From: Acorus gramineus
Taxonomy: Eukaryota; Streptophyta; Magnoliopsida; Acorales; Acoraceae
Direction: 5' to 3'
Assembly: GCA_030737835.1 (NCBI GenBank)
Contig: JAUJYN010000018.1
Location: forward strand, 3,534,001-3,598,000
Length of the DNA: 64,000 bases
Each line of letters begins with the position of its first letter. Within the stretch, counting starts at the first letter, position 1. The translations under genes were made by a program, and so were the position numbers. The notes under the pieces were generated by a model. The model was given only the letters and a program-made list of their open reading frames with translations, made no database searches and had not been told where the DNA came from. Of this stretch, positions 16,334-52,500 are shown one piece after another.

Positions 16334-19062
16334 TGTCACGCCCTAGGGCGGCCGTCCCCGGGAATATTCTAAACAACAGCAAAAAATGACAACACAGACA
16401 AAAGCAAGGCTGACATGATATATACACAAATAGCGGAAGCTAAAAGACTGAGTCTGTAATTTAAAAACATATTACAGACTCGATACATAATCAACTGTCC
16501 TGTGAGAGCCAATATATACAATGACATCCAATATAATACAAACAGGTGCCCAAGCACGGAAATAAAATACATACAATAAAAAAGGGATGCTGATGGCCTC
16601 TAACACTCGCGGGATGTGGCGCTGCTCCGCTACTGATGAAATCCCTCAGGGAGCTCCTCCTTCAGATCCGACTCAGTGATAACTGGAGAAAAATATACGA
16701 GGGGTGAGCCACACGCTCAGTGAATAGCACAACCCATGCATCACAATTCATATTAACCTCAAAATTATTCAAAGCCTCAAAGTGGCAGGAACTACACAAT
16801 CCAGTGGGTCGCAACATCGCCGACCCACCACACCCTCACCCTCACCCTCCAATAGGTGACACGGCTATTGGAACTGACTAGGCTGTTAATCACCCTTGGT
16901 CCACCGATAGTCTCTCCTCCACTCCGTAGTCCGCCTGGTCTACACCCACAATTCAGCACAATCCGAAACCAAATCAGGAGGTGCCTACTGATGGGAGCCC
17001 TCTGTCAGGATGGCCTTTCTAACGTTCGGGCAGTCTCTATACGGATCCAACGAAGGGAACAGAAACAGCCTACCCACACGTATACGATCCAATCGGATCC
17101 GCCGGCAACATCTTCCTAACAATTTAAATGTCATGAATTCTTGCGAATTCCTCCAGGGCGCATAACTACGATGCGGGGAAGCCTGTATTATAACCGCATG
17201 GTTATAATATTCACTAAGCATGCTCATTACTAAATAACTCACATTTGATTTAAATAAATTAAACTAAATGGGAACATGCACAGGTCGGGCTTCCTAGCAT
17301 GAAAATATGGTATCAGGATGCATGGCTCTTACACATATCCTAAGGGTGCAAGTCCCTAACATACAAGGTCTAGGGTAGCATGCATACTACATAACAATCA
17401 TGCCTGTATAGATTACATATTATACAAGTTAATATTAAACCATGGTGCCCCAGGGGAGGACGATACATGCCTAAGAGCATATACGCCTCCCAACTGGGTT
17501 GGATTGTCCCACTCACCAATACCCGGGTCATCGCGTGACCGTCCGTCAAGATCTGCAAGATAGGGTATTCAACACGGTGAGTAAAATACACAATACATAC
17601 AAAAATATACTAAAAATACCCAACACTCGGACAAACGTACATACGGCCCGTACGCACGCGAGCCCGAGTGCCCCGACTCACTCCCGCACCCCGGGCAGCC
17701 ATGCGCACGGCCACCCGCACGCGCACGCACGGGTGCACATGCACGCACACACGCCCGAGAGCCGGGCGCACTGCCGCGCCCCAGCCCGCGCGCCCAGACG
17801 CGCTGCCACGCCTCTGCCCGCACGCCCAAACCCGCCGCACGCCACATCGCGCGTGCCCGCGCGCACTGCGCGTCCAGCCCCGGGTGCACCCGCACGCACT
17901 GCGCCCCAGCGCAGCACCTCGCGCGCACACCCACACGCACTGCGCCCCGGGCGCATCCCGCGCGCACGCCCGCTCGCCTCCCCGCGCACACCGCACACAA
18001 CGCGCCCCTGCGCAGCGCTCCGTGCGCACGCCGTGCACTGCGCCCTGCGCGCCCGACAGCACGCGCCCAGCGCGCCTGACCGCAGCTCGCCCGCCTGCGC
18101 CTGCCTGCCTGCGGGCGCAGGCTCGCGCGCACGCGCGCCGGTGAGCCCGCAGGCACCCGAGCCAACCCTAACACCTCCAACAGCCCCCCAACAGCCCCCT
18201 CCAACAACCCAACAGCCAAGCATAACCAAAAACACCTCCAAACATGCATCTAAACAAGAAAAGGAAGGAAAGAAACTCACCCAAGGAGAGGAAGGAAAGG
18301 GGAGGAAGAACAGGTGCTCTTCGCGCACCGATTTACCACCTCCAAGACCACCACCACCTAGATCTCCACTCAGCCAAGGAAGGGCTGAAAACAGGGGAGA
18401 AAAGAGGCTATGAGAGGGGCTCACACATGAGGGAACTCGAAAATGAAACCATGGATTGATAGATCGGGTCCTCACCTTTCTTTTCTCCTTCTAGGGTTTC
18501 TTGATCCAACACTTCTAGCTAAGTCATATGGAGGAAATAAAGAGAGGGGAGAGAGAGATTTGAAGTAGAGAAGATGATGAATAGTGGGGGGGGCACTATG
18601 TCTAGGCGTGGACTTAAAGGGGGGGCCCACACCACACACACACCACTCACACACTCACACTTAAAGATTAATTAGGCTTAAGTGAGGTTTAGGTTAGGTG
18701 TAGGGGCACTTTGACTTGGGTCAACCCAACCACACTAGAAGACAAAAGAGTTGACCAAGTCATGGGCCCACATTGACCAAGTCAAGTCTCCCAATGACTT
18801 TTCGCTCGGTCAAAACCTGGATACGATTCGGAATTGTGAAATTCTAAAACGTTACTGGAATTCGATGAAATTTTCGTGAGTGGCTTGAAATGGCACCAGG
18901 ACACATAATATGCAGTTAGATTTTCAATCGGAGTCCTCAAACTCAGGATGATAGCTAAAAGTCCAAAATTTTAGCGGTTCCGATCGAAAAACGAAAAAGC
19001 TGAAAAACTGTCAGAATGCTCCAATGGTTACCAGAAGGCTAAAAAGTAACACATATATAACA
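16334..19062 (-). repeat. Family A solo LTR, TSD AAATA
   Basis: The LTR runs from TGTCACGCCC (16334) to the complement of TGTTATATATG ending at 19062, 2729 bp. AAATA flanks it on both sides (16329-16333 and 19063-19067), a perfect 5-bp target duplication with no internal region, so this is a solo LTR. Its CpG-rich block is about 17.64-18.16 kb and the micro-exon motif about 17.52-17.56 kb. It carries one G-rich cassette and lacks the optional 130-bp module. It sits in the C-type LTR. Confidence 0.95.
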
Positions 19063-21617
19063 AAATATGCCTCTAGTTACCAAATTCACAAGGATCTTCA
19101 CAAGATAGAAATCTGCCTTACTACAACACAAAGCCATCACTATTCATGCATAAACACAAACACCTCATGTGTAGCAGCAATTACACATAACAACTGTTGT
19201 GCCTGTGTCATTTGGAGCGCTCTGTTTGAAAATTTGGCTACATAATTTTTTTCCTCGAAGTTATGTATTTTCAATTTGGTATTTGGATTTGATTTTGTTA
19301 AAATCCAAGATGAAGAGGTTTAAATATGATTTTATTATGAGATGTCCAGTTTTGAGTTAGCTTTCGCACAGAAGTGGAATTAGATCAACTGGATTCTTGT
19401 AGTAAAAGTTATGGGTATTTTTCCAAGTATACCCCGGGGAGGGAAATTTTGGCAGCAGCCCTGTTCTATGTTTAGCTCTAATTTCGGAATAGCTGGAGAG
19501 ATTATTTGATCTTGGCATAAACATGAAAGTTGTAGATAATCTTCTTGGCTTTCCAACGGACTTAGAATTGTGCAATTCGGAGCTATATCGAGGAAGTTAT
19601 GGCTGTTCCAGTGAAGCATGCGCAGAATTTCTAGTCAAAGGATGATTTGGTCATTTCCATCCCTTTTAGATATTTGTGTGCAACAAATATCTTCCTCTCT
19701 CTCTCTCTCTCTCCCTCTCATTCCCACGTCTACCACTCTTGAGTCTCTCTTCTCTCTTTCACACACACCCCCCCAAGTGTTTGTGATAATGTCCCAAAGA
19801 GAAGGAGAAGGTGGAGGAGGAAGTGATGGTGAATCTTTGTGTAAGTGTTGTTGTTGTTGTTTGTCCTCCTCTCTCAAGCCCCCTCTCATATCTTGTCCCC
19901 CCCTGATTTGCAGCCAAGAAGGGGTGAGGAGAGGCCGAAGTGGTGGTGGTGGTGGTGGTTGAGGTGGCCGTGGGCGCGTCGAGAGCCCCGCACCTCCCCC
20001 TTTCTGTTTCCCTCTTTTGGTAAGTCCTTTTCCCCTTCTTTTTGATTTGTAAGGGCTGTTGGGATGGTTGGGGAAGTCATGCATGCTATGCATAGGGGTT
20101 AGAGTGTGTGTGAGGGGTTGGGGAGGGTTAAAATGGGGTAAGGGTTGGCTAGGCGGGCGCTGGCGGGCGCGCAAACGCGTGCGGGCGCGTGCGCGCGAGT
20201 GCGCGGGTGTGCGCGGAGTGGTCATGCGGGTGCGCGCGGGAGTGCGCGCCAGCGGGCGCGGGCGGGAAGTAGTGCGCCTGGGCGCGGGGCTGGGGACCAG
20301 TGCACGCGCGCGTGTGCGTGCGCATGCTGGGGCGTGCGAGCAGGGTGCTGCATGGGGGACGCAGTGCGCGCGGGTACGCGCTGGGCTGGACGCGCGGTGT
20401 GCGCGGGTGCGCCCGAGCGTGCGTGTGCGCACGGCAACGCGTCTGGGTGCGCAAGCAGGCGCACGACAATGCACTGAGGGTGCTGGGGTGCGTGCGTGCG
20501 TGCACACATGCGTGCGCGTGCGGGGGGGCCATGCGTGTGGCTGCCCGAGGGTTCGGGTAGGTGTCAGGGCACTCGGACTCGCGTGCGTACGTGCGTGCTC
20601 GCATGCGTGCGAGCCCGTATGCATGCTTGTCCGAGTATTGGGTATTTCTAATGATTTCTATGTGTAAATTGTGTTGTTACTCACCAAGTTGGATGCCCAT
20701 GCCTTGCAGATCGCGGCGGATGGGATGCGCGAGGTCCCGGGTTGTAAGGTGAGTGGTTCGATTCCAATCCCCCCCCCCCCTCTCTAGGGATGCGCTCGAC
20801 CCGCATAGACGCGCATCGCGCATCGATGGGGCCCCCTAGCTATAATATGTAAATACTATGTAACGCATGTTATAATATGATATAACCATGCCACATTAGA
20901 CCTTGTATGCTAGGGAAATGCATCCTGACACCATGTTTCATGCTAGGAAAGCCTTGACCTATGCATGTTCCCATTTAGTTTAATTTATTTAAATCAAGAT
21001 GGGATTACGTGATTATATTGTTATAAGCATGACATTAGAGAATATTATAACCTTGTGGTTATAATATATGTTTCCCCGCATCTTAGTTATGCGCCCTGGA
21101 GGAATTCTTGAGAATTCATGACATTAGAAATGTTAGGAAGCGTTGTCGACGGATCCAAGAGGATTGCATGCGTGTGGGTAGGCTGTTCTCTTCCCTTCGT
21201 TGGATCCGTGTAGTGACATCCCCAGTGTTAGACAGGCTGTCCTGACAGAGGGCTCCCATCTGTAGGTACCTCCAATGCATCGGACAGTGCTGATCGTGGG
21301 AGTATACCAGGTAAGCTACGGAGCGTGGGAGAGGCTAGTGGTGGACCAAGGGTGAATAGCAGTCTAGTCAGTCCCAAAAGGCCCATTCACCCCCTAAAGG
21401 GTGAGGGTGAGGGTGGGGTGGGTCGACGATGTTACGACCCACTAGCTTGTACAGTTACTCCTGTTTAGGGACTGTAATTATTTTAGGGTTAATATGTGTT
21501 GCGTTGCATAGTTTGTGCCATTCACTGAGTGTGTGGCACACCCCCCTCGCATATTCTTCTCCTCCAGAGTGGTAGTTGTTTCCATGGGGTTCGCTTTGAA
21601 AACATGGAATGTTCACT

Positions 21618-24600
21618 TGTTATATTTGTGTCACTTTTAACCTGTTGGTAACCGTTGGAGCGTCCTGGCAGTTTTTCAATTTTTTTCGATTTTCGATCGG
21701 AACCGCTAATTTTTGGACTGTTAGCTATCATCCTGAGTTAGAGGACTCCTATTGGAAATCTAACTGCATATTTGGTGTCCTGGTGCCATTTTAGGCCTCT
21801 CACGAAAATTTCATCGAATTCCGGTAACGTTCCTGAAATTTCACAGTTCCGGGGCGTATCCGGGTTTTTAAGTGACTTGCTATATAAGTGAGATCTAATT
21901 TTTGTTTGCCACTATTCATCATCCCTACCAAATTGCCCTCTCTCCTCTTCTCCATTTTTCTTCCATTTGAGGCCCTTAGACCCCTCAAAACCAAAAACCT
22001 AAAACCTAGGAAGTGTAGATCGGGTCCCGGTGGTTTCAAATCTCGATTCCGGCGAGTTTTACCCCTCCGTCCGCCCTCTCTTCTCCTCTGTTTTGGCCCA
22101 TTTCGGAGGTGGGAGTAGATCCGGGCGTTGGAAGCCCTTTGGGAAAGGTTTCGGTGCGCGGAGAGCAACCGGACTTCCCTTCTTCCCCTCGGTAAGCCTC
22201 CTTTCCCTCTTTTTCATGCTTAGATGTATGTTAGGAGGGTAGATTTGTGGTTGGGAGGCGGTCGGCGGTGGTGGGTGGCCGTCGGAGGGCTGTGGTGGTG
22301 GTCGGAGGCCGTGGGGTGGTCGGAGGTGGGTGGTAGAGGAGCTCGGGCTGGCAGGCTGCTGTCTCGGGCAGGGCAGCAGCGCAGGGCAGCAGGCGCAGCG
22401 GCTGGCGCAGGCGCGCGCGCGCGTGCGCGCGGGCGTGCGCGCGTGCGTGCGCTCGGGTGGCGCTGGGGGCCAGCAGGGCTGGGCGTGCGTGCGCTCGGGT
22501 GGCGCTGGGGGCCAGCAGGGCTGGGCAAGCTGGGTAGGGCTAGCCGGGTAGGCTGGAAGCAGGCGCACCAGTTTGCCGGGCGCGCATGCGGGCGTGCGCT
22601 CGGGGGGTGCAGGGGGAGGCATGCAGGTAGGCAGGCTGCTGGCTGTGCGAGCAGGGCAGGCCGACTGGGCAGGCCATGCTCGGGCAGCTGGCAGGGGGTG
22701 CTCGGGCATCAGGCGGGCAGTGGCTGGGCGTGCAAGGCGAACGGTGCTTGAGCCACTCGACGACACGCGCAGGCAGGCAGTGCGGGCAGCAGCGCGGGCA
22801 TGCTGGCAGGCGCGTTGGGCGCGTGCTGCCAGGCGCGTTGGGCGCGTGTTGCGCGTGCGTGCGCGTGGGCGCTGGGTGAGGGTCCCGGGTGCGTGCGTGC
22901 GCGTGCGTGCGCGTGGGCGCTGGGTTTTGTGTATTTTTGATGTCTTTGGTAGTAGTTGTGGATTTTTAACTCACCATATTGAATGTCTGTCTTGCAGATC
23001 TAGACGGACGGTCGCGCGACGACCCAGATACCGGTGAGTGGGACAATCCAACCCAGTAGAGAGGGGTCATACGCATTTGGGCGTATACCGACCTCTCCTG
23101 GGGCACCATGGATGTATATTAACCAGCATGAATATGTAATCCATGCTTGCATGATTTAAATGTAGAATGCATGCTACCCTAGTCTTTGCATATTAGGGAC
23201 TTGCACCCTTAGGATAGGTGTAAGAGCCATGCACCATGCCCCCTGTTTTCATGATAGGAAACCTCGGCCTATGCATGCGTCCTACTAGTTTATTTATTAA
23301 ATTAAATGCTAGTGTATGTTAAATCGCATGCCTTAGATAATATTATAGGGAGGAGCCTTGCGAGGTCAACATTGAGACCCGTGTTAGGGTACTCCGTGTT
23401 CCTTGTTTGGTTGTCGGGATGTCCTGTATCGGGACCTCATGCTGCCCTCTCAAGGTTTCAAGTCCCATTAATATTATAAGTAATGTTATATAACTGTTAT
23501 GAATATTAGCATATTTAGTGAATATTATAGGGGAGGGGCCTTGCGAGGACAGCGGTGAGACCCGGGTTAGGGTACTCCGTGTTCCTTGTTTGGTTGTCGG
23601 GGTATCCTATATCGGGAACTCACGCCGCCCTCCCGAGTTTCTTTCCCCCAATGATATTCCGCCCTTGCTTTTATTGTGCGTGTTCCCTGCATCTTGGTTA
23701 TGCGCCCTGGAGGAACTCTGAAGAGTTCATGGCATTAGAGTTGTAGAGATGTATTGTCGGCGGATCCGAGTGGATCATATGCGTATGGATAGGCTGTTCT
23801 GTCCCCTTCGTTGGATCCGGTAGAGACTGCCCCAGCGTTAGAAAGGTCGTCCCTTCCAAGGGTTCCCCATCAGTAGGCGCCTCCTGATTTGGTTTCGGAC
23901 TGGGCCGAAGTTGTGGGTGAAAACCAAGCGGCCTACGGAGTGGAGGAGAGACTATCGGTGGACCAAGGGTGACCAACAGCCTAGGGTGAGGGTGAGGGTG
24001 TAGTGGGTTGGCGATGAGCGACCTACTGGATTTGTGATTGGATGATTATCAGTCCCAATAGCCTATGTCACCCATTGATGGGTGAGGGTGAGGGTGTGGT
24101 GGTTCGGCGAAGTACGAACCACTGGATTATGTTGTTATGTCACTTAGAGGCTGGATAAATAATGGAATTGTGGTAAATATTGTCTGTGATGCATGGGTTG
24201 TGCTGTTCACTGAGCGTGTGGCTCACCCCTCGCATATGTTTTTCCCCAGTGGTCACTGAGCCTGAGCTGGAGCCGGAGCAGCAGTTGGAGCTTTTCGAGG
24301 GATTCCTTCAGTAGCGGAGCAGCGCTACGTTCCGCGAGTGCCAGAGATTATCAGCATCCCTTCTTGACTGTATGTATTTGATTTCGGTGCTTGACACGTG
24401 TTTGTATATGTTCAGTTGTATTGGTGTATATTGGCTCTCACAGGACAGATGATTGAGTATCGAGTCTGTAGAATGTTTATTTACAGATTCAGTCTTTTGC
24501 TTCCGCATTTGGTGTATATATCATGTCAACCCCTTTGTTGCATGTGTGTCATTCTAGTTGTTTGTGTATGATATATTATTGACCTCCTGAGTAGATTCTG

Positions 24601-25215: not shown

Positions 25216-27582
25216 TCCTCAAAAGTCCCAAGAGTCTCCCTCCGGGAGTGAGGGTGGGGGTGAGGTTGGTCGCGCCGCCGCGTGACCCAGTTATCCATGG
25301 GTTTCTACCCATGTTTTCCTTGAAAGGAAATTGATTATGTATTGAACTGTAGAATGGTGATTGGTTTCCAACCACTCACTGAGCTTGTAGCTCACCCCTC
25401 ACATACTGTTTCTTTTCAGGGGCAGTGTTGGGCGTGGAGCTGGAGCTTCCTGTGGGTGGTCTTATGGGCGTGGAGCGTTCTACCGGCGGGTGGCGTGTGC
25501 GAGGCTGTCAGCATTCCTAGAGTCATTTTATGCTTTGTAAATCGTGCATGTGGCACAAGTTGTATTTTCTTTGGTCTAGACTTGGCTTTCACAGGACATT
25601 GATTGTGTATTCGGGTCTGTAATAATGTTTTTGATTTACAGACATTGTTATATATTTTGCTTCCGCTTTTCAGTCAGTTATCATTATCTTGCTTTGCCGC
25701 CTTGTGTATTGTTGTTGGTGTCCTTATTGACCTCAGGTATTGATAGCTGATATTTATTATTGCCACGTCTCAGGGACGGCCGCCCTTGTCACGCCCCAGG
25801 GCGGCCATCCCTGGGTCGCGGCAAGTGTATACAAGATATCAGCAGTCTAAACAGGGAATCAATAAATCACTCTAAACAACAACTAGAATGACAACAACAC
25901 AGATGAAAGCAAGGCTAACATAATATATACACAGATAGCGGAAGCTAAAAGACTGAGTCTGTAATCCAAAAACATACTACGGACTCGATACAAATCAAAC
26001 GTCCTGTGAGAGCCAATATATACACATACATCCAAATAATACACAACTGGGTGCCCACGCACAGAAATATATACATACAATAAAAGGAAGGATGCTGATG
26101 GCCTCAGAAACTCGCGGGATGTAGCGCTACTCCGAACTGGTGCAGTCGCTTAGGGAGCTCCTCCTTCAAGTCCTCCTCAATAATCACTGGAAAAATATTA
26201 TGCGAGGGGTGAGCCACACGCTCAGTGAACAGCACAACCCATGCATCATAATCATATTAACCACAAATAATCAACAACTAGCCTCAAAGTGGCTTAACAA
26301 CATAAAATCCAGTAATTCGTTACATCGCCGAACCACGATACCCTCACCCTCACCCCTCAATAGGTGACATAGGATATTGGGACTGATAATCATCCAAACA
26401 CATCCTTACACCCTCACCCTCACCTCTCAATAGGTGACATAGGATATTGGGACTTATAATCATCCAAACACATCCATACACATCCATACACCCTCACCCT
26501 CACCTCTCAACAGGTGACATAGGATATTGGGACTGACTAGGCTGTTAATCATCCTTGGTCCACCGATAGCCTCTCCTCCACACCGTAGCTTGCCTGGTCT
26601 ACTCCCACATTCAGCACAGTCCGAGTCCAAGATCAGGAGGTGCCTACTGATGGGAGCCCTCTGTCAGGATAGTGTCTAACGCTGAGGAGTTCCTACACGG
26701 ATCCAACGAAGGGAAGAGAAACAGCCTACTCACACGCATATGATCCACTCGGATCCGCTGACAACACATCTCTACAACTCTAATGTCTTGAATTCATCAG
26801 AATTCCTCCAGGGCGCATAACCAAGATGCGGGGAACATGCATTAATATAGACGGGAAAAGAAACCTTGGGAGGGCACCATGAGGTCCCGATATAGGACAT
26901 CCCGACAACCAAACAAGGAACACGGAGCACCCTAGCCCGGGTCTCAATGTTGACCTCGCAAGGCCCCTTAATATTCCCTAAGGCATGCTATAATATTACA
27001 AGTTGCATTTAATTTAACAAATTAAACTAATAGGACGCATACAAAGGCCGAGGCTTTCCTAGCATGATAACAAGGTGACAAGATGCATGGCTCTTACACA
27101 ACCTAAGGGTGCAAGTCCCTAACATACTCAGTCTAGGGTAGCATGCATACTACATATCAATCATGCTTGCATGGATTACATATTAAACAGGTTAATATTA
27201 ATCTATGGTGCCCAGGGGAGGACGGTATACGCCCAAGTGCATATAGCGCCTCCCAACTGGGTTGGATTGTCCCACTCACCGGTAATCGGGTCGTCGCGCG
27301 ACCGTCCGTCAAGATCTGCAAGACAGGGTATCAACTTGGTGAGTAAAATCCACAATTACACCAAAAATACTCTAAAAATACCCAACACTCGGGCAAACGT
27401 ACATACGGCCCGTACGCACGCTAGCCCGAGCACCCCGACTCACTCCCGCACCCCCGGGCAGCCGCTCGCACGGCCACCCGCCCCGGGCGCACAGCCGAGC
27501 CCCGGCCCGCGCGCCCAGGCGCACTGCCGAGCCCAGCCTGCACGCCCGGACTCCCTGCCGGATCACCCCGGGTGCACCGCGC

Positions 27583-27840: not shown

Positions 27841-29015
27841 GCTCGCCTCACCGACGCGCACACCCCGCGCCTGCGCCTCTGCCCAGCGCTCCGCGCGCAT
27901 GCTCCTGCACGGTGCCCAGCGCCCCAGCACCCTCGCCCAGCATACCCAGCGCCCAACACAGCCAGCACGCCCAGCACCCAGCACGCCCAGCGCCCAGCAC
28001 ACCCAGCGCCCCGCACACCTGCGCCTGTGACACCCGAGCGCATGCCCGCGCGCACGTCTGTGCGCCTGCTGCGCCTGCCCGCTGCGCTACCTGTGCTGCC
28101 TGCTGCCCGGAACAGCTAACCACCCTACCCGAGCACCTCCACCACCACCCACCGGCCACCAATGGCCTTCGACCACCCCCCAACCACCACCGACAGCCAC
28201 CAGCCACCCTCCACACTCAACCACACCCTCCTAACATGCATCTAAACATGAAAAAGAAGGAAAAACCATTACCCAAGGAAAGGAGAGGAAAGGAAGGGAA
28301 CCGGAGGATCTTCGTGCACCGAAACGCCTCCCAACGGATCTCCACCACCAAGACCTCCTCCTACCTCAAAAGGGGCTGAAAACAGGGGAGAATAGAGGGG
28401 GTTAGAGGGGGCCAAACTTGTCGGAACTCGAATCCGAGAACACCGGGGGATAGATCGGGACCGGATCTAACCTTTCTATGTTTTGGGAATTGAGTTTTGA
28501 GAACCCTAGGTTGCTCAAAACCAAGAAGAGGAGAGAGGGGGAGAGAGAAAATGAGTTTGAGAAGATGATGAATAGTGTAGGGCAAATTTGCTACTCACTT
28601 ATATAAGTCAAACCACTTGGATTAGGGTTAAGCAAGCTTATTTAGGGTTTAAGTGAGGCTTTAAGTGGGTTTTGACTTGGGTCAACTCAACCACAAATAA
28701 AAACAAAAGGGGTTGACCAAGTCTATGGGCCCACTTTGACCGAGTCAACTTGTTATATATGTGTCACTTTTTGGCCTGCTGGTAACTATTGGAGCATTTT
28801 GGCAGTTTTTGAGTTTTTTCGTTTTTCGATCGGAACCGCTAAAATTTTGGACTGTTAGCTATCGTCTTGTGTTTGAGGACTCCGATTGGAAATCTAACTG
28901 CATATTATGTGTCCTGGTGTAATTCTAAGCCACTCATGAAAGTTTCATCGAATTCCGATAACGTTTCTGAAATTTCACAGTTCCGGGGCGTATCCGGGTA
29001 TTTTAAGTGACTTGC

Positions 29016-29023
29016 TATATAAA
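29016..29023 (+). promoter_or_regulatory. Candidate TATA box in the LTR of T2
   Basis: TATATAAA occurs about 265 bases into the LTR, with a CT-rich leader beginning some 50 bases downstream. The same box is at the same place in the 3' LTR (near 36.85 kb) and nearly so in the A LTR at 21618. It predicts transcription starting near 29048, giving a short U3 and a very long R-U5. No expression data are visible here. Confidence 0.6.
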
Positions 29024-30138
29024 TGAAATCTAAAATTAGATTGCCACTATTCATCATCCCTACCAAATGAAATCTCTCTCTCCCCTCTCTCCTTTTCTTT
29101 GATTTGAGCCCCCTAGAGCCCTCAAACCCAAAAACCTAAAGCATAGAAAGTGTAGATCGGGTCCCGATCTACACCCCGGTGCTTTCAAATCCCGATTCCG
29201 GCCTACCTAGCCCTCCCATCCGCCCTCTCTTCTCCTCAGATCCAAGCCAAATCGGAGGTGGGAGTAGGTCTCGGTGGTAGAGACCGTTGGGGGAGCGTTT
29301 CGGTGCGCGGAGAGCAACCGGACACCTCTTCCTCCCCCTTGGTAAGCTCTTTTTCCTCTTCTTTTTGGCTTAGATGTATGTTAGGAAGGGGGTTTTGTGT
29401 TTGGGGGGTGGTCGGCTGCTGTGGGAGGCTGTCGGAGGTGGTTGGGGGCGGTCGGAGGCCGTCGGAGGTCGGTGGGTTGGTGGTGGAGGTGCTTGGGCTT
29501 GGGGGTTGCTGTCTCGGGCAGGCAGCAGCACAGGCGCAGCAGGCGGAGCCGCTGGCAGGGCGCGCGCGTGCGTGCGCGCGGGCGTGCGCTCGGGGGGAGC
29601 TGGAGGCCAGCAGGGCGCGCGTGCTGGCCGCTGGGCGTGCTGGGCGTGCGGGCGCTGGGCGTGCTGTGCGCGGGTGTGCTGGGGGTGCTGGTCGAGCGGT
29701 TGGTGCGAGGAGCTGGTCGAGCGGCTGGTGCGAGGAGCTGGTCGAGCGGCTGGTGCGGAGAACGAGCGGATAATGCGCGCGGAGTGCGCGCGGGGTGAGG
29801 CAGGGGAGGTGCGCGCGGGGCGTGCAGTGTGCTCGCGGGCTGCTGCGATGGGGCGCAGTGGGCGCGCGGTGCACCCGGGAGGCTGGGCGGCAAGTCCAGG
29901 CGTTCGGGCAGGGGCCGGCGGTGCGCCTGGGTGCGCGGGCTGAGGCGCGGCGGTGCATCCGGGGTCGGGTGGCCGTGCGGGTGGTTGCCGGGGGTGCGGG
30001 AGTGAGTCGGGGTGCTCGGGCTAGCGTGCGTGCAGGTCGTATGCACGTTTGCCCGAGTGTGGGGTGTTTGTTTGTATGTTTTTATGTATTTTGAGGTATT
30101 TGAGGATTTTACTCACCAATTGATACCCTGTCTTGCAG

Positions 30139-30174
30139 ATCTCGACGGACGGTCGCGCGTCGACCCGACTTCCG
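30139..30174 (+). other. Conserved 36-nt micro-exon-like segment inside the LTR
   Basis: The segment starts ATCTCGACGGACGG and ends ACTTCCG, preceded by TCTTGCAG and followed by GTGAGT. It is 36 nt in T2, in T3 (54555-54590) and in the A LTR at 22998-23033, and the same block with its flanks is visible in every A LTR that reaches this region. The D LTRs carry a related 39-nt version (near 20.71 and 46.00 kb). The flanking motifs match plant splice acceptors and donors. That it is spliced is my inference from conservation. Confidence 0.55.
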
Positions 30175-31620
30175 GTGAGTGGGACAACCCAACCCAGTTT
30201 GGGAGGCGCTACATGCACTTGGGCGTGTACCGTCCTCCCCTGGGGCAGATAGTTAGTATTAACTGTTTTATTATATTACCTGTAAGCATGATGTGTGTGT
30301 AGAATGCATGCCGCCCTAGACTTGTATGTTAGGGACTTGCACCCTTAGGATTTGTGCATGAGCCGTGCATCCTGTCACCCCGTTATCATGCTAGGAAAGC
30401 CCGACCTATGCATGCGTCCTATTAGTTTGATTTATTTATTTAAATGCAAACTGTGATATTGATTAGCATGTTTGGGGAATATAAGGGGGCCTTGCGAGGT
30501 TAACATTGAGACCCGGGTTAGGGTACTCCGTGTTCCTCGTTTGGTTGTCGGATGTCCTACATCGGGACCTCAGGTTACCCTCCCAAGGTCTCTTTTCCTC
30601 ATTTATGTCTTATTTATTTCCCCGCATCTTGGTTATGCGCGCTGGTGGAATTCTGAAGAATTCAAGACATTAGAGTTGTAGAGATGTGCTGTCAGCGGAT
30701 CCGAGTGGATCATATGCGATGGATAGGCTGTTCTGTTCCCTTCGTTGGATCCGTGTAGAGACTACCTCGGCGTTGGAAAGGTTGTCCCGTGCAGGGGCTC
30801 CCATCAGTAGGCGCCTCCTGATTTGGTAGAAGGACTGTGCCGAATGTGGGAGTGGCCAAACGACCTACGGAGTGGGGAGAGACTATCGGTGGACCAAGGG
30901 TGACCAACAGCCTAGTCAGTCCCAAGAGCCTATGTCACCTATTGAGGGTGAGGGTGAGGGTATGGTGGGCCGGCGATGCGACGACCCACAGGATTGTGTA
31001 TGGATGATTATCAGCCCATTAAGTCCCAACATCCTTGGTCACCTATGGAGGGGTGAGGGTGAGGGTATGGTGGTTCGGCGATGTAACGAACCCCCGGATT
31101 TGTGTTATTTATGCCACTTTGTGGCTTTTTGCTATAAATGTGGTTAATATAAACTGTATGCATGGGTTGTGCTATTCACTGAGCGTGTGGCTCACCCCTC
31201 GCATAAAATCTTTTTCAGTGATCACTGAGGAGGACTTGAAGGAGGAGCTTCCCGAGCGACTACACCAGTAGCGGAGTAGCGCCACGTCCCTCGAGTTTTG
31301 AGGCCATCAGCATCCTTCTCTTTGTTGTATGTATATTTTCTGTGCTTGGGCACCTAGTTTGGATTATGTATGGATTGTATTTGTGTATATGGACATGTTG
31401 GCTCTCACAGGACATATGATTATGTATCGAGTCTGTAGTATGTTTTGATTACAGATTCAGTCTTTTAGCTTCCGCATTTGGTGTATATATTATGTCAGCC
31501 CTGCTTTTATCTGTGTTGTCATTTTAGCTGTTGTGTGAGTATTATTGAACTCCTGTTTACTGATATCATATATACACTTGCCGCGTCCCGGGGACGGCCG
31601 CCCTGGGGCGTGACAAAAGT

Positions 31621-31632
31621 TGGTATCAGAGC
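31621..31632 (+). other. Primer binding site of T2 (initiator-Met tRNA type)
   Basis: TGGTATCAGAGC lies 5 bases after the LTR end and is complementary to the 3' end of initiator methionine tRNA, which would prime minus-strand DNA synthesis. Confidence 0.95.
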
Positions 31633-31735
31633 CTGGTCCTGTCAGAGCCAATTGTCTTCTTTTTCGTAGAGATGAGTCCTAGGATTTCTATATGCGTATT
31701 CTGATCCTAGTGTCTGGTTTTCTTAGGTTGCTGAT

Positions 31736-36588: not shown

Positions 36589-39521
36589 TGTTATATATGT
36601 GTCACTTTTTGGCCTGCTGGTAACCATTGGAGCATTTTGACAGTTTTTGAGTTTTTTCGTTTTTCGATCGGAACCGCTAAAATTTTGGACTGTTAGCTAT
36701 CGTCCTGTGTTTGAGGACTCCGATTGGAAATCTAACTGCATATTATGTGTCCTGGTGCCATTCTAAGCCACTCATGAAAATTTCATCAAATTCCGGTAAC
36801 GTTTCCAAAATTTCACAGTTCCGGGGCGTATCCGGGTTTTTAAGTGACTTGCTATATAAATGAGATCTAAAATTAGATTGCCACTATTCATCATCCCTAC
36901 CAAATGAAATCTCTCTCTCCCCTCTCTCCTTTTCTTTGATTTGAGCCCCTTAGAGCCCTCAAACCCAAAAACCTAAAGCATAGAAAGTGTAGATCGGGTC
37001 CCGATCTACACCCCGGTGCTTTCAAATCCCGATTCCGGCCTACCTAGCCCTCCCATCCGCCCTCTCTTCTCCTCAGATCCGAGCCAAATCGGAGGTGGGA
37101 GTAGGTCTCGGTGGTAGAGACCGTTGGGGGAGCGTTTCGGTGCGCGGAGAGCAACCGGACACCTCTTCCTCCCCCTTGGTAAGCTCTTTTTCCTCTTCTT
37201 TTGGCTTAGATGTATGTTTGGAAGGGGGTTTTGTGTTTGGGGGGTGGTCGGCGGCTGAGGGAGGCTGTCGGAGGTGGTCGGGGGCGGTCGGAGGCCGTCG
37301 GAGGTCGGTGGGTTGGTGGTGGAGGTGCTCGGGCATGGGGGTTGCTGTTCCGGGCAGGGCAGCAGCACAGGCGCAGCCGCTGGCAGGGCGCGCGCGTGCG
37401 TGCGCGCGGGCGTGCGCTCGGGGGGAGCTGGAGGCCAGCAGGGCGCGTGTGCTGGGCGCTGGGCGTGCTGGGCGTGCGGGCGCTGGGCATGCTGTGCGCG
37501 GGTGTGCTGGTCGAGCGGCTGGTGCGAGGTGCTGGTCGAGCGGCTGGTGCGAGGTGCTGGTCGAGCGGCTGGTGCGGAGAGCGGTGCGAGCGGATGATGC
37601 GCGCGGAGTGCGCGCGGGGTGAGGCAGGGGAGGTGCGTGCGGAGTGCGCGCAGGGCGAGGCAGGGGAGGTGCGCGCGGGGCGAGGCGCTGTGCTCGCGGG
37701 CCAGCGCGGGGCGTACGGGTGCGCGTGGGCTACTGCGATGGGGTGCAGTGGGGGCGCGGTGCACCCTGGAGGTTGGGCGGCAAGTCCAGGCGTGCGGGCA
37801 GGGGCCGGCGGTGCGCCTGGGTGCGCGGGCTGTGGCGCGGCGGCGCATCCGGGGGCGGGTGGCCGTGCGGGTAGTTGCCGGGGGTGCGGGAGTGAGCCGG
37901 GGTGCTCGGGCTAGCGTGCGTGCGGGTCGTATGCACGTTTGCCCGAGTGTTGGGTGTTTATTTGTGTATTTTGTGTATTTTGGGGTATTTGTGGATTATA
38001 CTTACCAAGTTGTTATCCTGTCTTGCAGATCTCGACGGACGGTCGCGCGTCGACCCGACTTCCGGTGAGTGGTACAACCCAACCCAGTTTGGGAGGCGAT
38101 ACATGCACTTGGGCGTGTACCGTCCTCCCCTGGGGCACATAGTTAGTATTAATTGTTTTTATTATAATCCATGCAAGCATGATCTGTGTGTAGAATGCAT
38201 GCCACCCTAGACTTGTATGTTAGGGACTTGCACCCTTAGGATTTGTGCATGAGCCGTGCATCCTGTCACCCCGTTATCATGCTAGGAAAGCCCTGACCTA
38301 TGCATGCGTCCTATTAGTTTGATTTATTTATTTAAATGCAAGCGGTGATATTGATTACCATGCCTTGGGGAATATAAGGGGGCCTTGCGAGGTTAACATT
38401 AAGACCCGGGTTAGGTACTCCGTGTTCCTTGTTTGGTTGTCAGGATGTCCTACATCAGGACCTCAGGTTGTCCTCCCAAGATCTCTTTTCCTCATTTATA
38501 TCTTAGATTTCCCCGCATCTTGGTTATGCGCGCTGGAGGAATTCTGAATGAATTCAAGACATTAGAGTTGTAGAGATGTGCTGTCAACGGATCCGAGTGG
38601 ATCATATGCGATGGATAGGCTCTTCTGTTCCCTTCGTTGGATCCGTGTAGAGACTACCTCAGCGTTAGAAAGGTCGTCCCATGCAGGGGCTCCCATCAGT
38701 AGGCGCCCCCTGATTTGGTAGAAGGACTGTGCCAAATGTGGGAGTGGCCAAACGACCTACGGAGTGGGGAGAGACTATCGGTGGACCAAGGGTGACCAAC
38801 AGCCTAGTCAGTCCCAAGAGCCTATGTCACCTATTGAGGGGTGAGGGTGAGGGTATGGTGGGCCGGCGATGCGATGACCCACAGGATTGTGTATGGATGA
38901 TTATCAGCCCATTAAGTCCCAATACCCTTGGTCACCTATTGAGGGGTGAGGGTGAGGGTGAGGGTGTGGTGGTTCGGCGATGTAGCGAACCACCGGACTT
39001 GTGATTGATTATGCCACTTTGGGGCTCTTTGCTATAAATTGTGGTTAATATAAACTGTATGCATGGGTTGTGCTATTCACTGAGCGTGTGGCTCACCCCT
39101 CGCATAAAATATTTTTCAGTGATCACTGAGGAGGACTTGAAGGAGGAGCTTCCCGAGCGACTACACCAGTAGCGGAGTAGCGCCACGTCCCTCGAGTTTT
39201 GAGGCCATCAGCATCCTTCTCTTTGTTGTATGTATATATTTATGTGCTTGGGCACCTAGTTTGGATTATGTATGGATTGTATTTGTGTGTATATGGACAT
39301 GTTGGCTCTCACAGGACATATGATTATGTATCGAGTCTGTAGTATGTTTTGATTACAGATTCAGTCATTTAGCTTCCGCATTTGGTGTATATATCATGTC
39401 AGCCCTGCTTTTATCTGTGTTGTCATTTTAGCTGTTGTGTGAGTATATTATTGAACTCCTGTTTACTGATATCATATATACACTTGCCGCGTCCCGGGGA
39501 CGGCCGCCCTGGGGCGTGACA
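36589..39521 (+). repeat. 3' LTR of T2 (2933 bp)
   Basis: Same module order as the 5' LTR, ending GGGGCGTGACA before CAACT. It differs from the 5' copy by scattered substitutions and by indels in the CpG-rich block (about 37.38-37.94 kb). It carries the clearest G-rich cassette of the window (38943-38965). Confidence 0.95.
38943..38965 (+). repeat. G-quadruplex-type (GGGTGA)n cassette
   Basis: Four GGG runs separated by TGA form the minimal pattern of an intramolecular G-quadruplex. Each is followed by GTGGTGG-TTCGGCGATG. Copies sit in every A and D LTR that reaches this region, on the element's sense strand, one to three per LTR. Confidence 0.75.
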
Positions 39522-44474: not shown

Positions 44475-47400
44475 TGTTGTGCCTGTGTCATTTGGAGCAC
44501 TCTGTTTGAAAATTTGGGTACATAATTTTTTTTCCCTAGAAGTTATGTATTTCCAATTTGGTATTTGGATTTGATTTTGTTAAAATCCAAGATGAAGAGG
44601 TTTAAATATGAGTTTACTATGAGATGTCCAGTTTTGAGTTATTTTTCGTACAGAAGTGGAATTAGATCAACTGGATTCTTGTAGTAAAAGTTATGGGTAT
44701 TTTTCCAAGTATACCCCGTGGAGGGAAATTCTGGCCACAGCCCTGTTCCATGTTTAGCTCTAATTTTGGAATAGCTAGAGGGATTATTTGATCTTGGCAT
44801 AAACATGAAAGTTGTAGATAAGCCTCTTGGATTTCTAATGGACTTGGAATTGTGCAATTCAGAGCTGTATCGAGGAAGTTATGGCTATTCCAATGAAGCT
44901 TGCGCAAAATTTATAGTCAAAGGGCGACCTAGTCATTGCCCCTTAGATATTTGTGATAAATATCTTTTCTCTCTCTCTCCCCCTCCCAAACCCCCACGCC
45001 CACGCCATTTTTCCTCTCTCTCTTCCTCTCTCTCTCAAGCCCCCATGTGTTTGATTTTATTCCCCAATGAGAAAATGAGAAGGAAGAGGTGAAGGAAGAA
45101 GAGAAGGTTGTGTATGTGTTGTTGTTGTTTGTTCCCCTCTCTCTCAAGCACCCTTTACATGGATCTTCCCCCCCTGATTTTCAGCTGAAGAGGAGGCTGA
45201 GGAGAGGCTGAGGAGGTGGTGGTAGTGGTGGTGGCGGTTGAGGTGGTCGCGGGTGCGTCGAGGGCCCCCGAACCTCCCCCTTTTTGTTCCCCCTCCAAGG
45301 TGAGCCTTTCCCCTTCTTTTCTTGGTTTTTATGGCTTAAGGGGTTGTGGGAAAGTCATGCATGCCAGGTAGATGGGTTAGGGTGTGTGTGAGGGGTTGGG
45401 GAGGGTTAAAATGGGGTTAGGACGGGCTGGACGCGCGTTGGGCGCAGTCTGCGCGCGCCCAGGCGTGCGCTGGCAAGCGCAGTCGGGCGAGCAGACGCGC
45501 GCGGGTGTGCGCGCGGATGAGCGGGTGCGCGCGAGTGCACGTAGACGCGTGCGGGAGTGCGCGCGTGCGGCAGTGTGCCTGGGCATGTTGCCTGGGCACG
45601 GGGCAGGGGACCAGTGCACGCGCGTGCATGCGTGCGCGTGCTGGGGCGTGCGCGGGGTGCTGCGCGTGGGACGCGGGCTGGACGCGCGGTGCTCGAGGGG
45701 GCGCGTGAGCGTACGCGTGCGCGCTGCAGCGCGTCTGGGCGCGCGGGCAGGCGCGCGGCAGTGCGCCGATGGTGCTGGGGTGCGTGCGTGCGTGCGCATT
45801 CGTGCGTGCGCATGCGGGGGGCCATGCGTGTGGCTGCCCGAGGGTTCGGGTAGGTGTCGGGGCACTCGGACTCGCATGCGTACGTGCGTGCTCGCATGCG
45901 TGCGAGCCCGTATGCATGCTTGTCCGAGTATTGGGTATTTCTAATAATTTCTTTGTGTAAATTGTGTTGTTTCTCACCAGTTGGATGCCCCTACCTTGCA
46001 GATCTCGTCGGATGGGATGCACGAGGTCCCGGGTCGTAAGGTGAGTGGTTTGATTCCAATCCCCCCCTCTCTACGGATGTGCTCGACCCATGTAGACGCG
46101 CGTCGTGCATCGATGGGGCCCCCTAACTAATATGTAGATATTTTGCATGCTAGGGATATACATCCATGTATCGTGTATAGAGGCCCGTACATGCCTGGAC
46201 ACCATGTCCTGTACTTAAAAGCCTTGATCTATGCATGATTAATATGATGTATCCATGCCACCTTAGACTTTGTATGCTAGGGATATGCACCCTTATATCA
46301 TGTATAGCGGCCTATGCATGTTTAGTCACCATGTTTCATGCTAGGAAAGCCTCGACCTATGCATGTTCCCATTTAGTTTAATTTATTTAAATCAAGATGG
46401 GATTATGTGATTATATTGTTGCAAGCATGCCTTAGAGAATATTATAACCTTGTTGTTATAATATATGTCTCCCCGCATCTTAGTTATGCGCCCTGGAGGA
46501 ATTCTTGAGAATTCATGACATTAGAAATGTTAGGAAGCGTTGTCGACGGATCCAAGGGGATCATATCCGCGTGAGTAGGCTGTCTTCTCCTTATTGGTTG
46601 GGATCCGAGGTAGGAACTCCCCGACGATGGCTGACCTGACAGGGGACTCCCGTCCGTAGGTACCTCCGATGTGTCGGACAGTACTGATAGCGGGAGTGGA
46701 CCAGGTAGAGGCTACGAGGGTGGGAGAGGCTACCCGGTGGGACCAAGGGTGAATAGTAGTCTAGTCAGTCCCAAAAGGCCCATGTCACCCCCTAAAGGGT
46801 GAGGGTGAGGGTGGGGTGGGTCGGCGATGTTACGACCCACTAGCTTGTGTAGTTACTCCCGTTTAGGGACTATGACTACTTTGAGGTTAATATGAGTGTG
46901 TTGGTTGCTGTTATGCATGTGTGTGATATCTCGATGAGCGAGTATCGAGAGTGGTTGTTTTCCATTGGGTTTCGCTTTGCGAACATGGGATCGTTCTCCT
47001 CGGCGTTGGCTATACCTGTCAGAGGACTAGGCGGAGGCCACGAGGGTGAGAGAGGCTGAGTTGAGGAGATCGGGTTGTAGATACTACCCGGGAGAGGGTT
47101 AACGAATGATGTTACGGGCGTGGGAATCGTTCTCCCCTTCGTTGGATTCGTGTAGTACAGCCTCGACGTTAGACAGGCTGTTCTAACAAAGGGCTCCCAT
47201 CTGTAGGTACCTCCGATGTGTTCGGATAGTGCTGATCGTGGGAGTATACCAGGTAAGCTACGGAGCGGGGAGAGGCTACCGGTGGACCAAGGGTGAATAG
47301 TAGTCTAAGTCTCTCCCAAAGTCCAAAGATGTCTCCTTTCAGGAGTGAGGGTGTGGATGAGGAGAAGACGCGTCGTCTCGTGACCCATTCGTTGTTCGAC

Positions 47401-49551: not shown

Positions 49552-52500
49552 TGTCACGCCCCAGGGCGGCCGTCCCCGGGACGCGGCAAGGGTATACATG
49601 ATATCAGCAGTCAATAAAGGAGATCAATAAAATACCATAAACAACAGCTAATAAGACAACACAGACAACAAAAGGTTGACATGATGTATACACAGAAAAG
49701 CGGAAGCTAAAAAGACTGAATCGTAAATCAACAACACTTTACAGACTCGATACATAATCATACGTCCTGTGGGAGCCAATATATCCACAATACATCCATA
49801 TACAATCCATACTAGGTGCCCAAGCACATAAATATATACATACAATGAAAGAGAAGGATGCTGATGGCCTCAAAACTCGAGGGACGTGGTGCTACTCCGC
49901 TACTGGTGTAGTCGCTCGGGAAGCTCCTCCTTCAAGTCCGCCTCGGTAATCACTGGAGAAAAATAATTATGCGAGGGGTGAGCCACACGCTCAGTGAATA
50001 GCACAACCCATGTATACAGTTTATATGAACCACATTTATCAAGTCAATAGCCTCAAAATGGCATAAACAACACAAATCCGGGGGTTCGTTACATCGCCGA
50101 ACCACCATACCCTCACCCTCACCCTCACCCCTCAATAGGTGACAAAGGATGTTGGGACTTAATAGGCTGATAATCACCCTTACACAATCCAGTGGGTTGC
50201 CACAACGCCGACCCACCATACCCTCACCCTCACCCCTCAATAGGTGACATAGGCTCTTGGGACTAACTAGGCTGTTGGTCACCCTTGGTCCACCGATAGT
50301 CTCTCCCCACTCCGTAGGTCGTTTGGCCACTCCCACATTCAGCACAGTCCTTCTACCAAATCAGGAGGTGCCTACTGATGGGAGCCCCTGCACGGGATGA
50401 CCTTTCTAACGCTGAGGTAGTCTCTACACGGATCCAACGAAGGGAACAGAATAGCCTATCCATCGCATATGATCCACTCGGATCCGCTGACAGCACATCT
50501 CTACAACTCTAATGTCTTGAATTCTTCAGAATTCCACCAGCGCGCATAACCAAGATGCGGGGAAATACATAAGATAAAAATGAGGAAAAGAGACCTTGGG
50601 AGGGCAACCTGAGGTCCCGATGTAGGACATCCCGCCAACCAAACAAGGAACACGGAGTACCCTAACCCGGGTCTCAATGTTAACCTCGCAAGGCCCCCTT
50701 ATATTCCCCAAAGCATGCTAATCAATATCACAGTTTGCATTTAAATAAATAAATCAAACTAATAGGACGCATGCATAGGTCAGGGCTTTCCTAGCATGAT
50801 AACGAGGTGACAGGATGCACGGCTCATGCACATATCCTAAGGGTGCAAGTCCCTAACATACAAGTCTAGGGTGGCATGCATTCTACACATAAGTCATGCT
50901 TGCATGGATTACAATAAAACAGTTAATATTAACTATGTGCCCCAGGGGAGGACGGTACACGCCCAAGTGCATGTAGCGCCTCCCAAACTGGGTTGGGTTG
51001 TCCCACTCACCGGAAGTCGGGTCGCCGCGCGACCGTTTGTCAAGATCTGCAAGACAGGGTATCAACTTGGTGACTAAAATCCACAATTACCACAAAATAC
51101 ACAAAAACATACACATAAACACCCAACACTCGGGCAAACGTGCATACGCCCCGTACGCACGCTAGCCCGAGCACCCCGACTCACTCCCGTACCCCCGGCA
51201 ACCACCCGCACGGCCACCCGCGACCGGATGCACCGCCGCGCCTCAGCCCGCGCACCTAGGCGCACCGTTGGGCCCCTGCCCGCACGCCTGGACATGCAGC
51301 CGAGCCACCCGGGTGCACCGCGCGACCACTGAGCCCCATCGCAGCAGCCCGTGCGCACCCCGCACGCTCCGCGCTGGCCTGCGCGCACACCGCATGCCCC
51401 GCGCGCCCAGCGCCTCACCCCGCGCGCACCACTGGCTCGCCCAACGCTCCACCAACTCGCCTCGCGCGCACAGCGCGCTTGCGCCCCTGCGCAGCACTCC
51501 GCGCGCACCCCGCACGACATCCTGCACGCAGCGCCCCCATCACCCCTCCACCAGAGCCCAGCACACCCGTGCCCAGCACCCAGCACACGCGCCCAGCACG
51601 CCCTCCAGCTCCACCCGCGCGCACGCCCGCGCGCACGCGCGCGCGCGCCCAGCCTGCTGCGCTGCTTGCTGCCTGTGCTGCCGACCTGCCCGAGACAGCA
51701 ACCCACCCTGTCCGAGCACCTCCACCACCAACCACCGGCCACCCATGGCCTCCGACAGCCCCCAACCACCTCCGACAGCCACCCACAGCCGCCGACCACC
51801 ACCCAACACCAAAACCGCCCTCCTAACAAGCATCTAAGCCAAAAAGAAGAGTAAAAAGTGATTACCAAGGAAAGGAAGGGGTGTTCGGTTGCTCTCCGCG
51901 CACCGAAACGCCTCTCTAAGGGTCTCCACCACCAAGACCTCTTCCCACCTCCGAAATGGCTCCGATCTGAGGAGAAGAGAGGGCGGAAGAAAGGGCTAGA
52001 CACGCCGGAATTCGAATTTGAAAGCACCGGGGTGTAGATCGGGACCGGATCTACACTTTCTATGTTTTAGGTTTTTAGTTTTGGGCACTCCAAGGGGCTC
52101 AAAAGCTTGAAAAAGAGAGAGGGGGAGAGAGAAAAGCTTTGGGAAGATGATGAATAGTGGGCAACCATTTTTTGCTTTCTTTAAATAGTCAACTCACTTA
52201 AAATTAGGGCTAATCAAAATTAAGTGAGGATTAAGGGCTAGATTAGGTGAGGATTAAGGGTTTTAAGTGGGATTTGACTTAGGTCAACCCAACCACACAA
52301 AAAGACAAAAAGGGTTGACCAAGTCATGGGCCCACTTTGACCGAGTCAACTCTCCCAATGACTTCTCGCTCGGTCAAAACCCGGATACGCCACGGAACTG
52401 TGAAATTTTGGAAACGTTACCGGAATTCGATAAAATTTTCATGAGTGGCTTAAAATGGCACCAGGACACATAATATGCAGTTAGATTTTCAATGGGAGTC

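Follow-up and report, generated by a model that had tools for sequence, protein, structure and literature searches.

It is a standing question how LTR retrotransposons allot their RNA to translation or to replication. In plants, the transcript of the LTR retrotransposon Ogre is partially spliced (PMC6317226, PMC12786077), and CRR, Bagy-2 and the Ty1/copia elements BARE1 and EVADE make separate RNAs by splicing (PMC3735527, PMC12786077). As far as these accounts go, Ogre has its intron in the coding part, where it joins ORFs, the introns of BARE1 and EVADE are located at the end of gag or beyond it, and splicing removes rt in CRR and makes an env RNA in Bagy-2. Foamy virus, a vertebrate retrovirus, has its major splice donor in R, inside the LTR and upstream of the poly(A) signal, and the account cited describes neither a whole intron nor an internal exon in the LTR (PMC3694450). 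Loss of engineered introns from TyH3 and ONSEN/SAKE reporters proves an RNA intermediate (PMC12786077), and DNA copies of spliced BARE RNA were not amplifiable from barley in the report cited (PMC3735527). Here we describe an LTR retrotransposon of Acorus gramineus whose transcript, like that of Ogre, would be partially spliced, but with introns inside the LTR leader; like foamy virus, it would have a splice donor within the LTR, 5' of the poly(A) signal. Apparent DNA copies of its spliced RNA, in contrast to those of BARE, are present in the genome, so that a natural intron would give a read-out equal to that of the engineered ones.

The window, a stretch of 64,000 nucleotides, contains the element T2, flanked by CAACT on both sides. 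Its Pfam matches, read as separate pieces, are in order gag, RVP_2, RVT_1, RT_RNaseH, Integrase_H2C2 and SH3_Tf2-1; the integrase core model found no match in the broken pieces of T2, and a match to Chromo, the domain expected at the integrase C-terminus in the Tekay clade of chromoviruses, stayed below the cut-off of 25.1 (20.5 bits, E 4.5e-4). This domain order between two LTRs identifies T2 as a Ty3/gypsy LTR retrotransposon. An Rfam scan of 28700-31800 yielded nothing at gathering score. The first-pass annotation had proposed that the LTR leader is spliced around a 36-nt block, with the loss of about 800 and 1040 bases; the TATA box, the CTTG/GTAAGC boundary at the end of exon 1, the block itself and TTTTTCAG were all located as it described, and the two intervals measure 797 and 1,044 nt (Table 1). 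Transcription of T2 would start about 30 bases 3' of the TATA box, and the resulting exon 1 is poor in ATG. Spliceosomal introns within the transcribed part of the LTR would be the best overall explanation of the data presented below, with a probability of roughly three in four; the T2-type LTR almost certainly carries at least one real intron and probably two more.

Table 1. Features of the T2 leader and exon 2 copies in the window.
Feature	Position	Strand	Remarks
5' LTR of T2	28751..31615	+	2,865 bp
TATA box TATATAA	29016..29022	+	motif located in sequence
Leader exon 1	29046..29341	+	5' end inferred; 3' end fixed by intron-less copies
Intron 1	29342..30138	+	797 nt, GTAAGC...TCTTGCAG; precisely absent from intron-less genomic copies
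Exon 2, 36-nt micro-exon	30139..30174	+	TCTTGCAG, 36 nt and GTGAGT span 30131-30180
Intron 2 (likely)	30175..31218	+	1,044 nt, GTGAGT...TTTTTCAG; loss in DNA never found
Exon 3	31219..31326	+	108 nt; no ATG; codon-like stretch to TAG at 31269-31271
Probable intron 3	31327..31726	+	400 nt, GTATGT...TTTTCTTAG; primer-binding site inside
Primer-binding-site-like TGGTATCAGAGC	31621..31632	+	sequence likeness
gag start codon	31736..31738	+	Retrotrans_gag match downstream
Exon 2, T2 3' LTR (36589-39521)	38029..38064	+	donor GTAAGC 37179; exon 3 from 39120
Exon 2, LTR copy A1m	5391..5426	-	pattern match
Exon 2, LTR copy A2m	17517..17552	-	pattern match
Exon 2, LTR copy A3p	22998..23033	+	pattern match
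Exon 2, LTR copy A4m	27280..27315	-	pattern match
Exon 2, LTR copy A5m	51011..51046	-	pattern match
Exon 2, LTR copy A6p	54555..54590	+	pattern match
Family D exon 2, 39 nt	20710..20748	+	window sequence
Family D exon 2, 39 nt	46002..46040	+	exon 1 donor GTGAGC starts 45300

The pattern TCTTGCAG-N36-GTGAGT occurs eight times in the window, four times on each strand, and never in 100 shuffles. Together with the 39-nt relative found twice in family D, this bears out the earlier description of a block that recurs with its flanks in both orientations. Genome-wide, 11,732 places match the exon 2 core with three or fewer mismatches, compared with 0 for a reversed-pattern control. In a list of 100 places retrieved through the flanking sequences only, exon 2 measures 36 nt in 91, 37 nt in five, 35 nt in three and 29 nt in one; the claim that the family A block is 36 nt wherever counted is thus nearly, but not strictly, correct.

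Exon 1 directly joined to exon 2 is rare, being found at 47 genomic places, 31 without mismatch and 16 with one; two further places among the 18 that match at one mismatch read TCTTCTAG, an unspliced acceptor. At all 30 junction loci that were read, the exon 1 motif directly abuts exon 2 and the sequence then runs into intron 2, exon 3 being located downstream in 26. Seven elements, selected for two junctions 5-7 kb apart, are without intron 1 in both LTRs, and 5-bp target-site duplications flank all five of these that could be tested. The presence or absence of intron 1 forces at least 12 state changes on a tree of the 3' part and at least 6 on a tree of exon 1; losses scatter over many lineages on both trees. 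In family D, with its own exon 1 end as query, matches to intron-less junctions (counted as matches) were obtained at four places with no mismatch and seven with one. Short LTRs might instead have arisen by DNA deletion or by reverse-transcriptase slippage between short repeats, and CTTG, common to the donor and acceptor regions, is a possible slippage repeat. Slippage between CTTG copies would, however, leave CAG before ATCT. When the junction was left free, with up to about 20 extra bases allowed and an exact exon 1 word required, all 18 joins were exact, none keeping CAG and none imprecise; all 18 were already among the 47 places. Since identical exact ends in many lineages and matching junctions in family D also speak against it, an origin by slippage or deletion is highly improbable. 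Splicing of intron 1 is almost certain, its precise removal from RNA being apparently visible in the DNA copies that the spliced product has left. For this intron, the proposed leader splicing is supported by the 30 loci, the exact free joins, the many lineages and the similar junction matches in family D.

In the first 30 listed exon 2 copies, all from one contig and found with a pattern that fixed the G before ATCT, AG stands directly 5' of exon 2 in every copy, and bases -10 to -1 are conserved at 93-100%, compared with 40-90% at -30 to -11; the intron 1 acceptor thus stands out from its surroundings, a comparison that the first-pass annotation had suggested. All 42 copies measured have a GT donor directly after exon 1, a count that cannot reveal donor loss because the search required GT-type donors; it leaves aside three copies with no recognisable exon 1 and one mislocated copy (L042), which does contain GTGAGT. 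Across these 42 copies, intron 1 varies in length from 602 to 1372 nt. The AG acceptor at exon 3 is present in 69 of 70 located copies (6 of 76 were not located), preceded by a pyrimidine tract of varying length. Some features count against the splicing model. At the second donor, conservation begins with GT in GTGAGT and covers about 23 nt (30 copies); a donor needs less than this and does not by itself account for it. In addition, T2 intron 1, with a GC content of 0.69 and 22% T, is unlike plant introns, which are usually U-rich (PMC3735527), although U-richness is a tendency rather than a strict requirement.

The extended conservation at GTGAGT raises the possibility that only intron 1 is spliced, with exon 2 extending past GTGAGT and gag reached by internal entry or by shunting past the rest of the leader. 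In agreement with this, all 30 intron-1-less loci run on into intron 2, and no exon 2-exon 3 junction was found in DNA, one genomic search returning 0 matches and another 27, none of them a junction. A search for exon 1 joined to exon 3 gave 168 matches at up to one mismatch, 100 of which were listed. Among the matches listed, the only one without mismatch reads TCTTCG, 91 of the 99 with one mismatch end in intact TAG, and eight end otherwise, for example in CGG or TTG; these eight may include a few exon 1-exon 3 joins. Against the confinement of splicing to intron 1 stand the near-invariant AG with its pyrimidine tract before exon 3, a codon-like phase common to exons 2 and 3 across the predicted splice, and the distribution of ATG. 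After the predicted splicing, the T2 leader, 2,690 nt long with 50 ATGs, would measure 449 nt and contain a single ATG. Raw ATG counts ignore shared ancestry, and they were superseded by a substitution-based test on trees, in which tree edges are treated as independent. Exon 1 gained 12 ATGs where 57 were expected (sd 5) and exon 3 gained one where 8.7 were expected (sd 1.9), whereas gains in intron 2 were 40.5 observed to 20.5 expected in a 120-nt piece and 41.5/21.6, 56/21.8 and 42.5/42.2 in three 150-nt pieces. Two 150-nt pieces of intron 1 gave 27.5/24.0 and 26.5/32.0, and the 45 nt after GTATGT gave 16.5/11.5. The control triplet CAT shows no depletion in exon 1 or exon 3; GTA is depleted in exon 1 (24 observed, 52 expected), and CAT falls below expectation in some pieces of introns or of sequence after exons (5.5 vs 9.2, 16.5 vs 27.1, 9.5 vs 17.5), so that the test is not perfectly specific. 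Splicing of intron 1 alone is unlikely. Since ATG gains are held down in exons 1 and 3 and not in the intron 2 pieces, intron 2 is likely spliced as well; for this part of the proposed leader splicing, the conserved acceptor and the ATG avoidance of exon 3 are favourable, and a DNA copy of the product was not found in the genome searches.

A third intron is probable; it would start at a conserved GTATGT and end at an acceptor that lies 9 nt upstream of the gag ATG. GTATGT is conserved at 94-100% in 70 rows, and the gag acceptor CTTAG is present in 18 of 18 rows, representing 15 distinct places, two of the rows coming from a distant family. Genome searches found neither exon 2-gag nor exon 3-gag junctions in DNA. 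GTATGT might alternatively serve as an upstream element of plant polyadenylation, a possibility that counts against the splicing model. Excision of intron 3 would remove the putative primer-binding site TGGTATCAGAGC, presumably complementary to a tRNA. The first-pass annotation included neither the intron-less copies nor the acceptor before gag (31727) with its probable third intron.

The phase shared by exons 2 and 3 would also fit a coding function, in which spliced RNA encodes a small LTR-borne protein ending (LDGRSRDDP..)(V..E.DL.EELPE..HQ stop). In the shared phase, pN/pS is 0.39 for exon 2 and 0.36 for exon 3, compared with 0.82-1.59 in other frames; the exon 2 value comes from copies chosen by flanks, a test on exon-2-pattern copies having been dropped as biased. 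In most of 70 copies the stop falls at one of few positions (44 copies have 17 codons, 13 have 21), and changes in exon length are mostly in-frame. Column shuffling, however, gave P values of only 0.066 and 0.027, exon 3 has purine triplets that might act as a splicing enhancer instead, and the part of exon 1 from the last stop to the junction is without ATG in all 30 intron-less copies. Exon 1 was rejected as coding, since the values in its commonest length class (0.66 vs 0.53 and 1.38; 41 rows) are not codon-like; a smaller class, 10 rows of which 5 are distinct, yielded 0.27 from five changes, not enough to be used. We also rejected a two-exon accessory protein linking a gag donor to exon 2 of the 3' LTR: T2 has a GTGAGT near 31821 in the right phase, and this candidate donor is missing from all 17 other rows of the 18, which also weakens the coding reading. 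A protein encoded by exons 2 and 3 is therefore doubtful.

In the spliceosomal model, removal of intron 1 would join exon 1 to the 36-nt exon 2, a step that rests on the DNA copies of its product. Intron 2 removal would then join exon 2 to exon 3, which would probably be joined in turn, from GTATGT, to the acceptor upstream of gag. The fully spliced RNA would have a short, nearly ATG-free leader without the primer-binding site, and could hence be translated and not reverse transcribed, while the unspliced RNA would be the normal genome of the element. RNA spliced only at intron 1 would keep intron 2 and the primer-binding site and might sometimes enter reverse transcription; first-strand transfer would then give both new LTRs the shortened form, an outcome seen in DNA. 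We tentatively suggest, at somewhat less than even odds, that three introns in or beside the LTR separate translation, from fully spliced RNA that is rid of every ATG in the introns and serves only as gag-pol mRNA, from replication, through unspliced or intron-1-only RNA, and that intron 2 holds something that replication needs.

If this separation holds, loss of intron 1 from both LTRs would be a natural, repeated record of the RNA classes that were reverse transcribed. Which spliced RNAs went back into DNA seems to be written in the genome itself: losses of intron 1 are repeated, and none of intron 2 was found. The earlier suggestion that splicing lets a 2.9-kb LTR spare the transcript fits the drop in ATGs in T2, and it would offer a possible reason why an abundant plant element keeps so long an LTR, the greater part of which would be intronic.

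T2, a Ty3/gypsy-type LTR element of family A, has Pfam matches in Ty3/gypsy order to gag, protease, reverse transcriptase, RNase H and the zinc-finger and SH3 pieces of integrase. The chromodomain match was under the cut-off, and the label Tekay, given in the first-pass annotation, is tentative. The TATA box and the donor- and acceptor-like motifs of the T2 5′ LTR lie exactly at the positions given in that annotation. In the window, TCTTGCAG-N36-GTGAGT was found eight times, four on either strand, and never in 100 shuffles. Across the genome (398.6 Mb in 137 contigs), the exon 2 core had 11,732 matches with up to three mismatches (control pattern, 0), and the flank pattern TCTTGCAG, a gap of 22–50 and GTGAGTGGGACAA had 8,540. 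Among 100 of these flank matches listed, exon 2 was 36 nt long in 91, 37 nt in five, 35 nt in three and 29 nt in one; the length of 36 nt counted earlier in family A thus holds for most copies, though not for all. The 39-nt counterpart claimed for family D, the second LTR family, is indeed present, twice in the window.

Coordinates of LTR features in the window
Feature	Position	Strand	Remark
T2 5′ LTR	28751–31615	+	family A
T2 exon 1	29046–29341	+	start 29046 assumed
T2 intron 1	29342–30138	+	
T2 exon 2	30139–30174	+	
T2 likely intron 2	30175–31218	+	
T2 exon 3	31219–31326	+	
T2 probable intron 3	31327–31726	+	begins with GTATGT
T2 primer-binding site	31621	+	within probable intron 3
T2 gag ATG	31736–31738	+	
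T2 3′ LTR	36589–39521	+	
Family D exon 2	20710–20748		
Family D exon 2	46002–46040		
A6p exon 2	54555–54590	+	LTR copy

If RNA lacking intron 1 is reverse transcribed, the joined exon 1|exon 2 sequence is expected in the genome, and it was found. Among the matches listed (100 of 217), 31 places carried the junction without mismatch. Of the 18 places with a single mismatch, 16 carried it too; the remaining two read TCTTCTAG, an unspliced acceptor and no junction. The 51 rows listed with two mismatches, mostly of acceptor type such as TCTTGTAG, were left out of the junction count. In all 30 intron-1-less loci fetched, exon 2 immediately follows the exon 1 motif and the sequence runs on into intron 2, with exon 3 found downstream in 26. 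When aligned to T2, 17 of the 30 have one match ending at 29337 or 29341 and, no more than three bases further on, the next match, which starts at 30138; exon 1 of the other 13 is too diverged for the alignment to reach the exon end, and the junction is visible in the locus sequence. A junction-free search of the genome, in which only an exon 1 word and the exon 2 start were fixed with 14–44 bases free between them, returned the join at the identical point in 18 of 18 matches and no imprecise join; since all 18 were already among the exon 1|exon 2 places, this search tests for imprecise joins and adds no new number. These genomic copies bear out the earlier proposal of leader splicing for intron 1, which is almost certainly spliced out of the LTR leader RNA. 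In family D, a pattern search for the junction gave 27 matches; the family's own exon 1 end, CCTCCAAG or CTCCCAAG, was present in four without mismatch and seven with one, and 9 of the 16 at two mismatches resemble unspliced or altered acceptors. L046, a family A copy, carries an exon 1 end of family D type, which suggests recombination between the two families. Exon 1 of L018, L019, L025, L029, L035 and L038 lacks about 90 nt, a block that lies between GGTAAG and TTTCAG in the copy L009; its absence may reflect another intron or a deletion.

Each of seven sites with paired junctions is a single element lacking intron 1 in both LTRs; the sites were picked for two listed junctions 5–7 kb apart, so that seven of seven gives no rate. 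Their internal part is full-length in three and about 3 kb in four, and 5-bp target-site duplications, read from printed flanks, were present in all five elements with comparable ends. The intron-1-less elements are normal insertions. Under the established retroviral strand-transfer scheme, RNA spliced near its 5′ end has the loss written into both LTRs, and reverse transcription of such RNA would account for the absence of intron 1 from both. The four elements with about 3 kb between LTRs, L069 (C2), L070 (C54), L071 (C78) and L073 (C58), retain gag, pol pieces (approximately 34315–34648 of T2 in L069–L071, more in L073) and the pol end beside the 3′ LTR; they resemble non-autonomous partners. 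In the tree built from 76 copies (1 kb from exon 2 on, with L023 and L025 very long and joined to each other), the intron-less state required 14 changes, at least 12 of them forced by well supported branches, and on a tree of 73 copies from exon 1 alone (three long rows, bootstraps unsettled) 14 changes with at least 6 forced, counts that recombination among copies could raise on both trees. The sequences thus point to many losses of intron 1. Loss is the likelier direction because nearly all copies seen contain intron 1 and the same sites occur in family D. A review (PMC12786077) describes introns as generally absent from plant LTR elements and names Ogre and EVADE as exceptions, and foamy viruses have their major splice donor inside R; the open-access texts searched yielded no natural plant case of introns inside LTRs.

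The exon 2|exon 3 DNA junction had no genome match with patterns for the main sequence classes, and the 27 matches at three mismatches were all acceptors or unrelated. As a possible reason why DNA copies lack intron 1 but not intron 2, RNA without intron 2 may also have lost intron 3 together with the primer-binding site; alternatively, intron 2 may carry a signal required for packaging or copying. The exon 3 acceptor has AG in all but one of 70 copies, and its pyrimidine tract varies in length. None of 67 copies has an ATG in exon 3 as far as the conserved GTATGT, whereas intron 2 is ATG-rich. Together with the ATG-gain test described below, these findings favour splicing of intron 2. In 40-nt windows over the eight copies in the window, intron 2 is mostly better conserved than intron 1, both having some poorly conserved patches, although the unrelated 5′ part of one of the eight, A6p, depresses the intron 1 values.

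Intron 3, from GTATGT to the gag acceptor, is probable. GTATGT is 94–100% conserved (70 rows) with more variable flanks, and T2 has a pyrimidine-rich acceptor, TTTTCTTAG|GTTGCTGATATG, 9 nt upstream of the gag ATG. All 18 aligned rows retain CTTAG at this acceptor; they represent 15 distinct places and include two rows from a distant family. One row has GGTGCTG, and at one place, represented by two rows, AAG replaces the ATG. Removal of intron 3 would take away the primer-binding site. The genome pattern search returned no exon 3|gag DNA copies, the result that a failure of priming on RNA of this kind would predict.

Variation in exons 2 and 3 falls chiefly on the third positions of a single shared phase, with pN/pS of 0.39 and 0.36 in that phase and 0.82–1.59 in the other frames. 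Several of their length changes are multiples of three, and the exon 3 frame (31218–31271 and homologues) closes with a stop at one of few places. Column-shuffle tests of the pattern were weak (P 0.066 and 0.027), no start codon was found upstream of the frame in 30 intron-less copies, and exon 1 of the commonest class had no codon-like pattern. The pattern may stem from former coding, from a splicing enhancer or from a start codon at another site. Inspected by eye, exon 2 of family D has a TAA interrupting the phase left open in family A, so the two families do not have any coding role in common. In a subfamily (L044, L050, L051, L061, L064 and L065), an 11-nt deletion alters how the exon 3 frame ends.

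Because the copies are related, ATG gains were counted on tree edges and compared with the same substitutions randomly placed. Exon 1 had 12 gains versus 57 expected (sd 5) and exon 3 had 1 versus 8.7 (sd 1.9). A 120-nt stretch within intron 2 had 40.5 gains versus 20.5 expected, and the 45 nt 3′ of GTATGT had 16.5 versus 11.5. Observed and expected gains in 150-nt pieces were 41.5 and 21.6 (first), 56 and 21.8 (second) and 42.5 and 42.2 (last) for intron 2, and 27.5 and 24.0 (first) and 26.5 and 32.0 (last) for intron 1. The control CAT was undepleted in exon 1 (65 versus 64 expected) and exon 3 (13.5 versus 12.2), and depleted after GTATGT (5.5 versus 9.2) and at the 3′ ends of both of these introns (16.5 versus 27.1 and 9.5 versus 17.5). 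GTA gains were also low in exon 1 of many copies (24 versus 52 expected), a scarcity that perhaps serves to avoid false splice donors. With transcription assumed to start at 29046, removal of all three introns would shorten the T2 leader from 2,690 to 449 nt and reduce its ATGs from 50 to one. Judged from these sequence comparisons, the ATG pattern is best explained by a scanned leader consisting of exons 1 to 3.
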